From Acidipila sp. (GTDB lineage Bacteria > Acidobacteriota > Terriglobia > Acidiferrales > UBA7541), in contig JAAFGT010000036.1 of the NCBI GenBank assembly GCA_010365215.1, positions 1 through 37,985 on the forward strand: a DNA stretch of 37,985 nt. The letters run 5' to 3'. Below, piece after piece: positions 28,785 through 32,183 of this stretch. How positions within the stretch are numbered: the stretch's first letter is position 1; each line of letters starts with the position of its first letter. The notes beneath the pieces are model-generated. The model worked only from the letters and a program-made list of their open reading frames with translations, had not been told where the DNA came from and did not search any database. A program made the translations under genes and the position numbers.

Positions 28785-29927
28785 TTAACGTTGCACAATT
28801 TCGGAAGCTCGCACCAGCCTCACTCCCCGCACTTCGAGATCCGGCAGAGCATCCGTCAGCACGTTGATGGTGACGCGGTAGGGATGCCCGATGGCCACGG
28901 CCCAACCCGTCTCTTTCGCGCGGCGCTCGGCCCGCTCCAGTTGCGCCAGAATCGCCGACGGCTCCTGAACGTCGTCCAGAAACTCCGTGCGGTACGCAGC
29001 AGGAAGTCCGGCGGCGTGCGCAGTTTCGAAAGCCACGCTGGTGGCGGCCGTGCGGCTGTCGATCAGAAACAGGTGGCGCGCCGCCAGCGCGGCAATTACA
29101 TGTTTCATCAGCGCGGAATCCGCGGTAGCTCGCGATCCCTGGTGGTTATTGACTCCCACCGCGCCGGGCACCGTGGCCAGCATGGCGTCAAGCATCCGGG
29201 AAGTTTCCCCGGCGCTAAGGCCGGTGCGCAATTCAATGGCCTCCGCTGGACTCTGCGCGTTTTCCGATTGCATCGGCAGGTGCAGCAGAACTTCAAAGCC
29301 GCGCCGCCCGGCCCGCGCGGCCACTTCGCTGGAATTCGCCAGGTGCGGCAGTACGGCCACGGTCAGTGGAAAGGGCAAAGCCAGCACGCGCTCCGCGGAG
29401 GGAATGTCATAGCCCAGGTCGTCGATGATTAGGGCAAGACGCGGTTCGCTCGAACCTGCGCCGCGCTTGCGGGTGGTTTCAGTCGCATCACCCGCGAACA
29501 CAACCTGGATGGAGTGCGTGGGCTGGCCTTCGAAACGGCAGAGAAAGCGCACCAGCCGAGGGTTCGAGGAGTTCTTAAGCAATTCAAGGCCGTGCGCGCG
29601 CGCGACGCCCTGCCAACCGGCTTCCACGGCGGCAAGACTGCCGGCATCGTGCAAGGTCACCTGCAACCGTTCCGGCGGCGCGCTGGCAGCCTCACCCACT
29701 CGCGCGGTCGCGTCTTGCGCTCGCGAACCAAAAACGCGAATCTCCGCGGAGCCGCCGGTCGCCTTGCGCGCCGCTTGGATCAATTCACCAGTAACGGAAT
29801 CGAGTTCGAGGTGCGCCCGGGGTTTGGGCCCGCAGGCGGATAGAATTGCCAGGAGCGAGAACAGGGAGACAAGGCAGGTAAATTCAAGTGAAGTGGGGCG
29901 ATAGGTAGAAACGCGATGGGCCAGCAC
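28785..29927 (-). CDS. YibQ-type divergent polysaccharide deacetylase, lipoprotein
   Basis: Divergent polysaccharide deacetylase (DUF610/YibQ) domain, linked in Gram-negatives to envelope peptidoglycan or divisome functions. From GTG 29927 the product (about 380 residues) starts with a lipoprotein signal, LVSLFSLLAILSAC, with a lipobox LSAC. The deacetylase domain, about the last 240 residues, shows LALIIDDLGYD, LPFPLTVAVLPHLANS, EVLLHLPMQSE and a VGVNNHQGSRAT segment before FLIDSRTAATSVA. An alternative GTG at 30041 overlaps the end of the CtpA-like gene and would add 38 basic residues before the signal. The usual partner gene, a C-terminal protease, is directly upstream. Confidence 0.85.
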   Translation of the reverse strand: MLAHRVSTYRPTSLEFTCLVSLFSLLAILSACGPKPRAHLELDSVTGELIQAARKATGGSAEIRVFGSRAQDATARVGEAASAPPERLQVTLHDAGSLAAVEAGWQGVARAHGLELLKNSSNPRLVRFLCRFEGQPTHSIQVVFAGDATETTRKRGAGSSEPRLALIIDDLGYDIPSAERVLALPFPLTVAVLPHLANSSEVAARAGRRGFEVLLHLPMQSENAQSPAEAIELRTGLSAGETSRMLDAMLATVPGAVGVNNHQGSRATADSALMKHVIAALAARHLFLIDSRTAATSVAFETAHAAGLPAAYRTEFLDDVQEPSAILAQLERAERRAKETGWAVAIGHPYRVTINVLTDALPDLEVRGVRLVRASEIVQR

Positions 29928-29979
29928 GTGGCGCGCGCCTAGTAGACCAGCAGGCAGAAGGCGAGAAAATCGGCGGCGC

Positions 29980-31230
29980 CTAGACAAGAGCGCTGGAGAA
30001 AAAAACTTCCAAGGATGCGCTGCCGCTCTTTTTCGGTTCACCCTTCAAAATCTCGATGGCCTTTTTCAGCACCAGATCTTCCCGCGGCTTGGACGCTTCG
30101 GGTGCGCCCGAGAGCGGTTCTCCGTCGAGCTCGAGCGGCTCATCCACGGTGCTGTGTACTTCCGCTCCCGGAACCACGCCCTCGGCGGAAATCGATTTCC
30201 CATTCGGCGAATAGTAGAGCGCCACGGTCAACACCAGCGCTCCGCCGTCTTCGAGCTGCATTATCTTCTGCTCCGATGCGGCGCCGAAGGTGCGCTCTCC
30301 AACCGTTTCCGCGCGCTTGTTGTCGACCAGAGCGGCGGCGAGGATTTCGGCAGGACCCGCGGTGCTCGTCGAGGTCAGCACGGTGACCGGCGACGACCAC
30401 ACCTGCTTCGCCGCAGCGGCGGAGGATTCCTTGGAGGATACGGACTGTCCGCGCAAGGTGGTAATCGTGCCGGCACCCAAAAATAGTTGCGCTGTGTCAA
30501 TCGCTTCCGAAGCATCGCCAGAGGCGCAGTCCCGCAGATCGAGCACCAGTTTGTGCGCGCCCTGGCGGCCGAGTTCGACCAGCTTTTCGCGAATCTCCGC
30601 GGCGCGTCCCGCGCCAAACGTGGGCACGCGCATGTAGGCGATGTCTCCCTCGAGGCGGTCGGTTAGCAGGCGCGGCGCCGGGATTACGGCGCGAACGACG
30701 TCCACCTCCTGCGCCTCGGTTTTCCCGCGGCGCACTTCCGACATTTTCACGCCGGTCCCGGGCTCCCCAGCCAGCAATAGTTGCGCCTGTCGAATGGCCA
30801 TCTCCCGCGTGGTAAATCCGGCAATGCTCTCAATCAGGTCGCCGCTGTGCAGCCCGGCTTTTTGCGCAGGGCTATCCGGCAAGGTAGCCAGGACGACGAT
30901 GTAACCAAAACGCTTGCTGAGGATCGCTCCTACGTCGCCGCGAGCCGGCTTCTCGGAGCGCTTCTTGAAATCTTCGTACTCGCGGGGACTCAGGTAACTG
31001 GATTGTGAATCGAGAGACTCGAGCAGCCCGTGCAGGGCGCCAAGCGTTACCACTTGCATGTTGGGGTCATCCACGTATTCCTGCTGCACGCGCTGCAAGA
31101 CTTCCCCGAACACACCCAGGGAATGGTAGGTGCGGTCCCCGGAGGTCTTGCCCAAGGCATGACCAACGGCGATGTAAGAAAGAACGACAGCGGATAAGGT
31201 TAAGACGGCAAGTTTCGTAGCGCGATTCAT
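29980..31230 (-). CDS. CtpA/S41-family C-terminal processing peptidase homologue, catalytic residues missing
   Basis: A 416-residue envelope protein with signal/anchor (KLAVLTLSAVVLSYIAVGHALG), a helical domain (YHSLGVFGEVLQRVQQEYVDDP), a PDZ domain (about 97-180, GDVGAILSKRFGYIVVLATLPDSPAQKAGLHSGDLI) and an S41 fold. Catalytic Ser and Lys of S41A proteases lie in SASASEI and FGKG; here the aligned stretches read STAGPAEI (G292 at the serine position) and TFGAASEQ (A317 at the lysine position), with the same 25-residue spacing as in E. coli Tsp. The LDLRxNxGG motif is also degraded to LDLRDCASGDA. It should therefore be proteolytically dead, perhaps a binding or regulatory subunit. GAGGAAG precedes the ATG. 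The deacetylase gene follows in the same direction. Confidence 0.9.
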   Translation of the reverse strand: MNRATKLAVLTLSAVVLSYIAVGHALGKTSGDRTYHSLGVFGEVLQRVQQEYVDDPNMQVVTLGALHGLLESLDSQSSYLSPREYEDFKKRSEKPARGDVGAILSKRFGYIVVLATLPDSPAQKAGLHSGDLIESIAGFTTREMAIRQAQLLLAGEPGTGVKMSEVRRGKTEAQEVDVVRAVIPAPRLLTDRLEGDIAYMRVPTFGAGRAAEIREKLVELGRQGAHKLVLDLRDCASGDASEAIDTAQLFLGAGTITTLRGQSVSSKESSAAAAKQVWSSPVTVLTSTSTAGPAEILAAALVDNKRAETVGERTFGAASEQKIMQLEDGGALVLTVALYYSPNGKSISAEGVVPGAEVHSTVDEPLELDGEPLSGAPEASKPREDLVLKKAIEILKGEPKKSGSASLEVFFSSALV

Positions 31231-31640
31231 TCTTCCTCGCTAGAAGGGTCCCCGGCTGAAAAGTCCCTCGGTAAATCCGGCTCAGCCTCGGTCAGGCGAA
31301 TCCGAGATTATAGCATCGCGAAGCGGGCGGGGGCAGTACTGAGTTCGCGTCTGCCACTAGGTTCGCCGGACTTTGCGTTGCGAAGCTCGGGCCGAAGCGG
31401 AGCTACGGACCTGGCGAAGCTTAAGACCCACAAAAATAGGATGCGGAAATCACCACCCGCGGTAATAAGCTGGCGCGCCGGACGCGGAGCCGTCACGCTG
31501 TGTGCCCCGGTCGCAAATGTGGGCCGCTGTGCGTATCGTGCGACGCGCGAGCTTTGGGTGGGCCTGAGACAGGCCTGAGAGGGGTACGATAGGCAACCTC
31601 ACCGTCTGCATGCGGCGGAAAAGCGGAGGTTTTGAAGCGT
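31231..31640. other. Intergenic region between the CtpA-like and DUF4337 genes
   Basis: About 410 bases without a supported gene. Read leftward, a TATAAT (31307-31312) fits a -10 about 75 bases upstream of the CtpA-like start; a -35 is not convincing. The remaining ~300 bases contain short repeats of GCGAAGC and similar words but no clear inverted repeat or RNA structure that I can support. The DUF4337 ribosome binding site GGAGG lies at its right end. Confidence 0.45.
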
Positions 31641-32183
31641 ATGAATGAGGAGCTGCAAGAATTGAAAGAACGCGCCGAGGAAGCACGGGAAGACCGCAGC
31701 CTCGCTCCGGTGACTTTGACCATGGCGATCCTGGCCGTGCTGGTGGCCATCGTCACACTGCTCGATCATCGCGCGCACACCGAAGAGCTGCTGCTGCAGA
31801 GTAAATCTACTGACCAGTGGGCTTTCTACCAGGCCAAAAACATTCGCCGGCATTCCTACGAAATGTTTCTCGATCTGCTTAGCATCTCTTCGCCGAAAGA
31901 TCCGGCCGCGGCGGAAAAGATGAAGGAAAAATACAGCGCGCAGGTCGAGCGCTACAAAGACGAACAAAAAGAAATCGAGGCGGAGGCGCGGAAGTTTGAA
32001 GCAGAAGTCTCCACGGAGGGCCGCAAGGCAGCGCATTTTGGACTGGGCGAAGTGCTCCTGGAGGTGGGTCTGGTCGTAACCTCGATCACGCTGCTCACCA
32101 GGCGAAAAGCTTTTTGGATTTTCGGACTCGGCCTGGCGACAGCGGGATTGCTAGTGACCGCGCTGGGTCTGTTGATCCACTAG
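31641..32183 (+). CDS. DUF4337 family membrane protein
   Basis: A 180-residue membrane protein. Layout: charged coiled coil (NEELQELKERAEEAREDRS), transmembrane segment 1 (about 25-42, PVTLTMAILAVLVAIVTLLD), a soluble helical part with the family signature LLLQSKSTDQWAFYQAKNIRRHSYEMFLD (about 50-78) and coiled coil EKYSAQVERYKDEQKEIEAEARKFEAE, then two C-terminal segments (VLLEVGLVVTSITLL and FWIFGLGLATAGLLVTALGLL). This matches DUF4337 proteins, whose role is not known. A TTG three codons earlier is too close to the GGAGG ribosome binding site; the ATG is preferred. Confidence 0.88.
   Translation: MNEELQELKERAEEAREDRSLAPVTLTMAILAVLVAIVTLLDHRAHTEELLLQSKSTDQWAFYQAKNIRRHSYEMFLDLLSISSPKDPAAAEKMKEKYSAQVERYKDEQKEIEAEARKFEAEVSTEGRKAAHFGLGEVLLEVGLVVTSITLLTRRKAFWIFGLGLATAGLLVTALGLLIH

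Follow-up and report, generated by a model that had tools for sequence, protein, structure and literature searches.

The gene at the ctpA position of an Acidipila sp. window (the whole stretch of DNA analysed, 37,985 nucleotides) encodes what is almost certainly a maintained pseudoprotease, and its catalytic inactivity is strongly supported. The protein has the fold of the C-terminal processing peptidase CtpA, with Gly and Ala at the positions of the catalytic Ser and Lys. We found the corresponding protein dead in 263 of 267 acidobacterial loci, which span 69 family codes plus five named-record loci; three loci, all of family code f29, keep Ser-Lys-Gln, and one is unreadable. Together, these findings suggest that the protein in the acidobacterial ctpA slot binds proteins rather than cuts them.

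The window protein has the CtpA fold

Features of the gene and its neighbour are collected in Table 1. We found a Peptidase_S41 domain (PF03572, E 1e-36) with an inserted PDZ domain, the PDZ_6 match being weak (E 2e-5, 24.7 bits, slightly below the 27-bit gathering score). As a fold family, this arrangement is that of the S41A, or C-terminal processing, peptidases. The best NCBIfam model was TIGR00225 (C-terminal processing peptidase), at 202.7 bits and thus below the curated cut-off of 218.6 bits for the prc subfamily.

Among solved structures, P. aeruginosa and H. pylori CtpA were the top sequence matches. The AlphaFold model (mean pLDDT 84.3, pTM 0.80, from a 49-row alignment) matched H. 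pylori CtpA best (9jr1_A, Z 39.7, 351 residues aligned, 2.7 Å), followed by P. aeruginosa CtpA (8sxe_B, Z 39.1). Hence, the modelled fold is intact and CtpA-like, in line with the initial annotation. That annotation had also called the PDZ domain and the signal intact. The PDZ domain holds as a fold only, two activation residues in and beside it being replaced by R97 and A154, and the N-terminus resembles an uncleaved membrane anchor more than a cleaved signal, judging from a low-confidence helix of the model in which S13 and G23 are conserved across the family.

Table 1. Position of the pseudo-ctpA gene, its domains and key residues, and the adjoining yibQ gene in the window
Feature	Position	Strand	Basis or remark
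pseudo-ctpA	29980..31230	(-)	416-aa open ORF; membrane-anchored PDZ + S41, catalytically dead (strongly supported)
N-terminal helix, residues 3-30, probable inner-membrane anchor	31141..31224	(-)	DSSP H3-30 in model, low pLDDT
PDZ domain, residues ~97-186	30673..30942	(-)	Pfam; structural PDZ-only matches at residues 95-186
Peptidase_S41 core domain, residues 196-357	30160..30645	(-)	Pfam
R97, at H. pylori CtpA Phe105 (required for active state)	30940..30942	(-)	alignment
A154, at H. pylori CtpA Arg162 / B. subtilis CtpB Arg168 (sensor of the substrate C-terminus)	30769..30771	(-)	
C235, Asn position of RxNxGG	30526..30528	(-)	alignment
G292, replaces catalytic Ser	30355..30357	(-)	alignment
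A317, replaces catalytic Lys	30280..30282	(-)	alignment
Q321, catalytic Gln retained	30268..30270	(-)	alignment
yibQ/sddA, divergent polysaccharide deacetylase	28785..30041	(-)	longest ORF; PF04748, E 1.8e-69
Polysacc_deac_2 domain of YibQ	28794..29432	(-)	Pfam

The catalytic site and the activation switch are dismantled

The catalytic triad of H. pylori CtpA is given as S300/K325/Q329 (PMC12749690). In the window protein, where we verified the residues T290-A291-G292-P293 and F315-G316-A317, G292 and A317 align with the catalytic Ser and Lys of both P. aeruginosa and H. pylori CtpA and lie 25 residues apart, as in active enzymes. The protein therefore lacks the Ser and Lys of an active CtpA/Tsp and retains the third triad residue, Gln321. 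The alignment thus agrees with the initial reading of a replaced Ser-Lys pair at preserved spacing. The LDLRxNxGG motif, described there as degraded, indeed reads LDLRDCASGD (N235>C, G237>S), so that the oxyanion motif RxNxGG has become R-D-C-A-S-G. The alignment columns examined show no conserved Ser/Lys pair that could substitute.

The switch that activates CtpA is replaced as well. In H. pylori CtpA, Arg162 (Arg168 of B. subtilis CtpB) is described as the sensor of the substrate C-terminus, and Phe105 as interacting with it; R162A and R162E abolish activity, and F105R yields a hexamer whose protomers are all in the resting state (PMC12749690). The window protein has neither residue. In the set used for the tree (below), an aromatic residue occupies the Phe105 position in 20/22 active rows vs 0/94 dead rows, one of the two active exceptions being the engineered F105R crystal construct, and Arg or Lys occupies the Arg162 position in 20/22 active vs 39/94 dead rows. 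Position 97 is Asp in 3/3 f29 proteins with an intact triad. Hence, loss of the aromatic residue is not by itself a mark of the dead state, and the f29 proteins may be switched differently or be inactive.

The intact triad is rare across Acidobacteriota

A match to the window protein was found in 89/89 searched genomes of family code f1 (E <= 1e-3, paralogues included). At E <= 1e-44, matches were found in 86/95 genomes of the window's order and in 215/396 genomes drawn over the phylum. Set a comprises 85 loci of the order (f1-f3), three short pieces having been left out of the 88 places listed. Set b holds 99 other acidobacterial orthologues, namely 94 from the 215 matching phylum genomes, taken best-scoring first with some skipped, and the five named-record loci. 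Since a dead protein was the query behind both sets, loci were also chosen by yibQ, whose profile (PF04748) matched in 141/396 phylum genomes; this set c has 90 loci picked irrespective of the state of ctpA, the 30 best plus 60 for family diversity.

In set a, position 292 is Gly in 85/85 loci and Ser in none, and Lys is absent from position 317 in all 85. The residue at 317 varies in the order, being almost anything except Lys. A question raised at the outset was whether Gly and Ala are conserved in relatives: Gly292 is and Ala317 is not. With the same residues lost in 85/85 loci and no intact dyad among close relatives, an isolated mutation or sequencing error is ruled out. Position 292 in set b is Gly in 89/99 and Ser in 5/99 (L034, L182, L213, L231, L232), and Lys317 occurs in 2/99 (L213, L224).

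An S41 gene lies directly upstream of yibQ on the same strand in 83/90 set c loci, and none was detected in the other seven (L242, L244, L277, L299, L311, L316, L321). Ser-Lys-Gln is present in 2/83 (L284, L301), Ser alone in L292 and L305, and Lys alone in L243, L248, L252 and L254; L312 is unreadable at the site, and L310, L319, L320 and L322 align at 292 only, with Gly there. With only 2/83 intact among loci chosen by yibQ, the idea that a dead query merely finds dead proteins is rejected. In the comparison set, which consists of the 47 remaining homologue-search loci (from other phyla for the most part, L048 being acidobacterial) and the paralogue in the window's own genome, Ser, Lys and Gln are each kept in 48/48.

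Gln321 is kept in 84/85 of set a, 92/99 of set b and 17/83 of set c; hence, Gln too is mostly lost from the yibQ-linked families at greater distance. Two of the more divergent yibQ-linked S41 proteins, L254 and L285 (f18), read N-K-S and D-Q-F at the three triad positions, so that the Gly/Gln pattern is also gone. Separately, L166 (G004:C3) and L142 (G004:C128) come from one genome, which has a second, divergent dead copy (Gly-Asp-Arg) that groups on the tree with f5 proteins and not with its own family.

The dead gene family is under purifying selection

Across 36 independent pairs of relatives, the median dN/dS of the slot gene was 0.087 (range 0.034-0.176); the window gene is in no pair, since it is too distant from its relatives (at most 59% identity). 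The slot gene had a lower dN/dS than yibQ in 16 of the 17 pairs with both genes readable, a comparison in which the YibQ stretch includes a variable N-terminal part that favours the lower slot-gene value. Gene order is also kept over the 32 family codes of the yibQ-linked set. Hence, catalytic residues are lost across orthologues and, in the relatives, the dead protein is under purifying selection, which are the marks of a pseudoprotease. The relatives' dN/dS rules out a decaying gene. With relatives also dead and the modelled fold intact, the initial view of a maintained pseudoprotease has held up.

Catalysis was lost more than once or regained

We built a 119-row tree (94 dead, 25 intact) from an alignment stripped of the columns for catalysis and activation (154, 235, 237, 292, 317 and 321). 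On it, the intact or dead state requires at least two changes, and the three intact f29 rows are nested among dead rows with starred support; the rows nearest to them are L224 (Gly-Lys-Arg), L252 (Gly-Lys-Gln) and L291 (Gly-Arg-Gln). These f29 proteins (L213:3001-4179, L284, L301) keep both Ser-Lys-Gln and RxNxGG, and their near relatives are dead.

A single basal loss without regain was rejected: a tree uniting the intact rows fitted worse in a 48-row subset (LG+G4, log-likelihood difference 145, p-AU 2e-117), in a test that used a simpler model and a group defined only once the first tree was known. Hence, the triad was either regained in f29 or lost more than once. If regain is forbidden, the best tree requires 12 losses. 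The f29 Ser codons are TCA, TCC and TCC, and TCN is two steps from Gly; six other rows have Ser at 292 without the full triad, four with AGC and two with TCN. Because the f29 codons are TCN, some sisters keep Lys and RxNxGG is present in f29, we lean towards repeated loss rather than regain, on a tree whose deep branches are weak. f29 is thus a good place for studying the loss or regain of catalysis.

The slot lies beside yibQ and EnvC-like genes

The pairing of ctpA with yibQ proposed in the initial annotation is real, yibQ lying directly downstream on the same strand as expected for the order envC-ctpA-yibQ. Its longest ORF overlaps pseudo-ctpA by 62 bases in a different frame (29980-30041), with possible later starts at 29987 (TTG) and 29927 (GTG). 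The Asp/His motif residues of YibQ (IDD, HLPM, NNHQGS) are retained in 65/67 rows. The envC part of the order is missing from the window: the upstream ORF (31632-32183) is on the opposite strand, and of the two M23 proteins found in the genome neither is clearly EnvC.

Elsewhere in the phylum, an EnvC-like M23 gene lies upstream on the same strand in 51 of the 60 longer yibQ loci; counting only the 55 with S41, it does so in 47. In set b, M23 is upstream in 16 loci, close by in all except L171, and EnvC is the best NCBIfam model for five of these M23 proteins, below its equivalog cut-off. yibQ follows the S41 gene in 63 set a loci (62 f1, 1 f3). In many orthologue loci (f4 and others), no yibQ was seen within ~1.5-3 kb. 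One gene cluster follows the orthologue in 29 f4/f5 loci (28 f4, 1 f5), and its tested member, L095, is a transglycosylase (PBP1-like), so the downstream neighbourhood is still a cell-wall context; neighbour clusters were named by Pfam from one member each, and some of their ORFs are antisense shadows.

The operon also occurs with an intact ctpA. M23-ctpA-yibQ with the protease intact was found in the armatimonadote L080 and in two alphaproteobacterial replicons (Methylobacterium L325, Sinorhizobium L327), and the P. aeruginosa order is reported as envC-ctpA-PA5135 (PMC12569750), which bears out the earlier statement that the order is conserved elsewhere with a protease in place. Three of the 16 plasmid-collection records with a YibQ match were examined as the control from other phyla; in the third, Sulfurovum L326, neither M23 nor S41 was found within 4 kb by the profiles used. 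In thirteen further comparison-search loci, which their titles or tree labels mark as clostridial, M23 genes precede an S41 gene that is intact. Hence, within these controls, the acidobacterial trait is the dead protease inside the operon, not the operon itself.

Some loci depart from the common arrangement. In L277, L299, L316 and L321, the yibQ locus includes an EnvC-like M23 gene and no S41 was detected, so ctpA appears to have gone from its slot or to be too divergent to recognise. A large ORF precedes the EnvC-like gene in L220, L221, L225 and L229, and its end resembles, by eye, an alkaline-phosphatase-superfamily enzyme; gpmM is in the envC operon of E. coli. The S41 genes of two records titled 'uncultured Acinetobacter' (L057, L059) fall in one tight tree cluster with those of Gastranaerophilales L051 and L083, and the Acinetobacter titles look wrong.

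Many slot proteins end in -AA

A C-terminal -AA was found in 72/84 proteins of set a (one locus without a readable C-terminal end being excluded), 59/99 of set b and 37/83 of set c, or 168/266 in total. Among active-set homologues the tail occurs in 2/48, and among ORFs from 11 neighbouring gene clusters in 3/257. Rather than -AA, the C-terminus of the window protein reads ...KKSGSASLEVFFSSALV (...SSALV), unlike that of most relatives in its order; residues 364-381 and 401-416 are low-confidence stretches of its model. The intact f29 proteins also end in -KKAA; hence, the tail marks the slot family and not its dead members. The C-terminus of the window YibQ is -VQR, which is not a classical CTP ligand.

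Proposed role of the pseudoprotease

We infer a binding or regulatory role for the window protein. A CtpA without the residues for cutting, probably barred from its active conformation and retained in this gene set, may be a scaffold or a sequestering regulator of septal remodelling, a reading we favour tentatively and at a little under an even chance. The protein would face the periplasm from the inner membrane as a CtpA-like oligomer locked in its resting state, and its PDZ domain and groove would hold, without cutting, a partner in septal peptidoglycan remodelling. Candidate partners are YibQ/SddA, a peptidoglycan hydrolase or, in genomes that have one, an EnvC/amidase complex. Such a regulator would act where other phyla use regulated proteolysis, on the same clients as active CtpA, and the flexible -(K/R)AA tail of many relatives could be a ligand for the PDZ domain, either its own or that of active CtpA.

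SddA/YibQ is reported to deacetylate denuded strands, the products of the amidases, and to work on septal peptidoglycan in E. coli, its gene being co-expressed with envC (PMC12440217). Active P. aeruginosa CtpA, with its partner LbcA, is described as degrading cell-wall hydrolases (PMC12569750, PMC8764530). Against the scaffold reading, the window operon lacks EnvC and the window tail is not -AA. The carboxylate-gripping PDZ residue is also gone from the window protein, so its PDZ domain may not bind C-termini as usual; the wider dead family retains Arg or Lys there in 39/94 rows. Further points against it are the -VQR end of the window YibQ, the many orthologue loci with no yibQ seen nearby, and the intact f29 proteins, which share both the -AA tail and the loss of the aromatic residue.

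A regulatory subunit of active CtpA is an unlikely alternative, in which the dead protein would join the active S41 paralogue from its own cell in a mixed assembly, as a protomer that never leaves the resting state. H. pylori CtpA is reported to have one active subunit per dimer (PMC12749690), and the window's genome does hold an intact S-K-Q paralogue (L002, C17:44360-45391). However, identity to this paralogue, which lies in a 544-aa open frame, is only 31% (query residues 8-349); it is on another contig, and its place on the tree is among the intact rows, in a group with L048 and L062, rather than with the slot family.

Slightly less likely still, the -(K/R)AA tail would make the dead protein a bait or timer, a substrate of an active periplasmic CTP protease on whose activity it would report or which it would titrate. 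The enrichment of -AA in slot proteins over active-set homologues and neighbours is in keeping with this, and ssrA-type tails also end in AA. CTP proteases are described as acting on the substrate C-terminus (PMC12749690). However, the tail is absent from the window protein and from 46/83 yibQ-linked members, and it is present in the intact f29 proteins.

That another residue took over, so that the protein still cuts or does other chemistry, we consider improbable. Gln321, Glu295, Asp231 and Arg233 are conserved in the window's family, and Cys235 and Lys322 are frequent, but no Cys or Lys candidate is universal (C235 in 31/105 and 39/83, K322 in 64/105 and 10/83), and a substitute dyad was rejected for want of any universal candidate. 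D231, R233 and E295 are equally conserved in the active set and so look structural. Finally, a relaxed leftover that has lost its function and is decaying, as the replaced catalytic and activation residues and the divergence of some families might hint, is scarcely credible given the low dN/dS in 36/36 pairs of relatives and the conserved gene order.

Relation to known systems

The window protein shares its fold and PDZ insertion with P. aeruginosa CtpA (PDB 7rpq, 8sxe-h) and, according to PMC12569750, its gene slot between envC and yibQ. That CtpA is an active Ser-Lys protease working with LbcA, whereas the window protein lacks the Ser, the Lys, RxNxGG and the activation Arg and Phe. Its best structural match, H. 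pylori CtpA (PDB 9jr1, 9ku0, 9ku3), is described as active and switching between resting and active subunits (PMC12749690); the window protein is dead and naturally carries the change made in the laboratory as F105R together with Ala at the Arg162 position.

The same partner genes form the EnvC-SddA(YibQ) pair of E. coli, in which SddA is reported to modulate septal amidases (PMC12440217); unlike the acidobacterial loci, E. coli has no ctpA between envC and yibQ in the account of PMC12569750. ATU2773, encoded in an envC operon of A. tumefaciens, is a YibQ that lacks Zn ligands and is regarded as an inactive, regulatory member of the gene set (PMC12440217). That case has a dead deacetylase, whereas in the window it is the protease that is dead, and YibQ retains its motif residues.

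The retinoid-binding vertebrate protein IRBP/RBP3 also has an S41-type fold, with a structural match (7jti_D, Z 20.5) lower than those of CtpA and, unlike the window protein, no envC-ctpA-yibQ operon. IRBP is an S41-type protein in a non-proteolytic role, and pseudoproteases are a known kind of protein. Among the open-licence PMC papers listed in our searches, we found no published description of a dead CtpA in a division gene set across most sampled families of a phylum; the name ctpA is also used for a copper ATPase (PMC10490939).

Implications

The Pfam and NCBIfam models that match these dead proteins carry peptidase names, which is a warning for annotation. If a phylum retains CtpA beside EnvC and YibQ but dismantles its catalysis, CtpA in this slot must have a task other than proteolysis. 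In the acidobacterial dead ctpA, nature has run an experiment on a gene set common in bacteria, one relevant to the control of the amidases and deacetylase that split the septum. It is possible, and we hold this more doubtfully than the role proposed for the protein itself, that in most acidobacterial lineages, and perhaps in several independent events, a PDZ scaffold of septal remodelling with no proteolytic role has replaced the protease in the ctpA slot. If this is true, the essential job of the slot would be binding, including an unrecognised binding role of active CtpA in other phyla.
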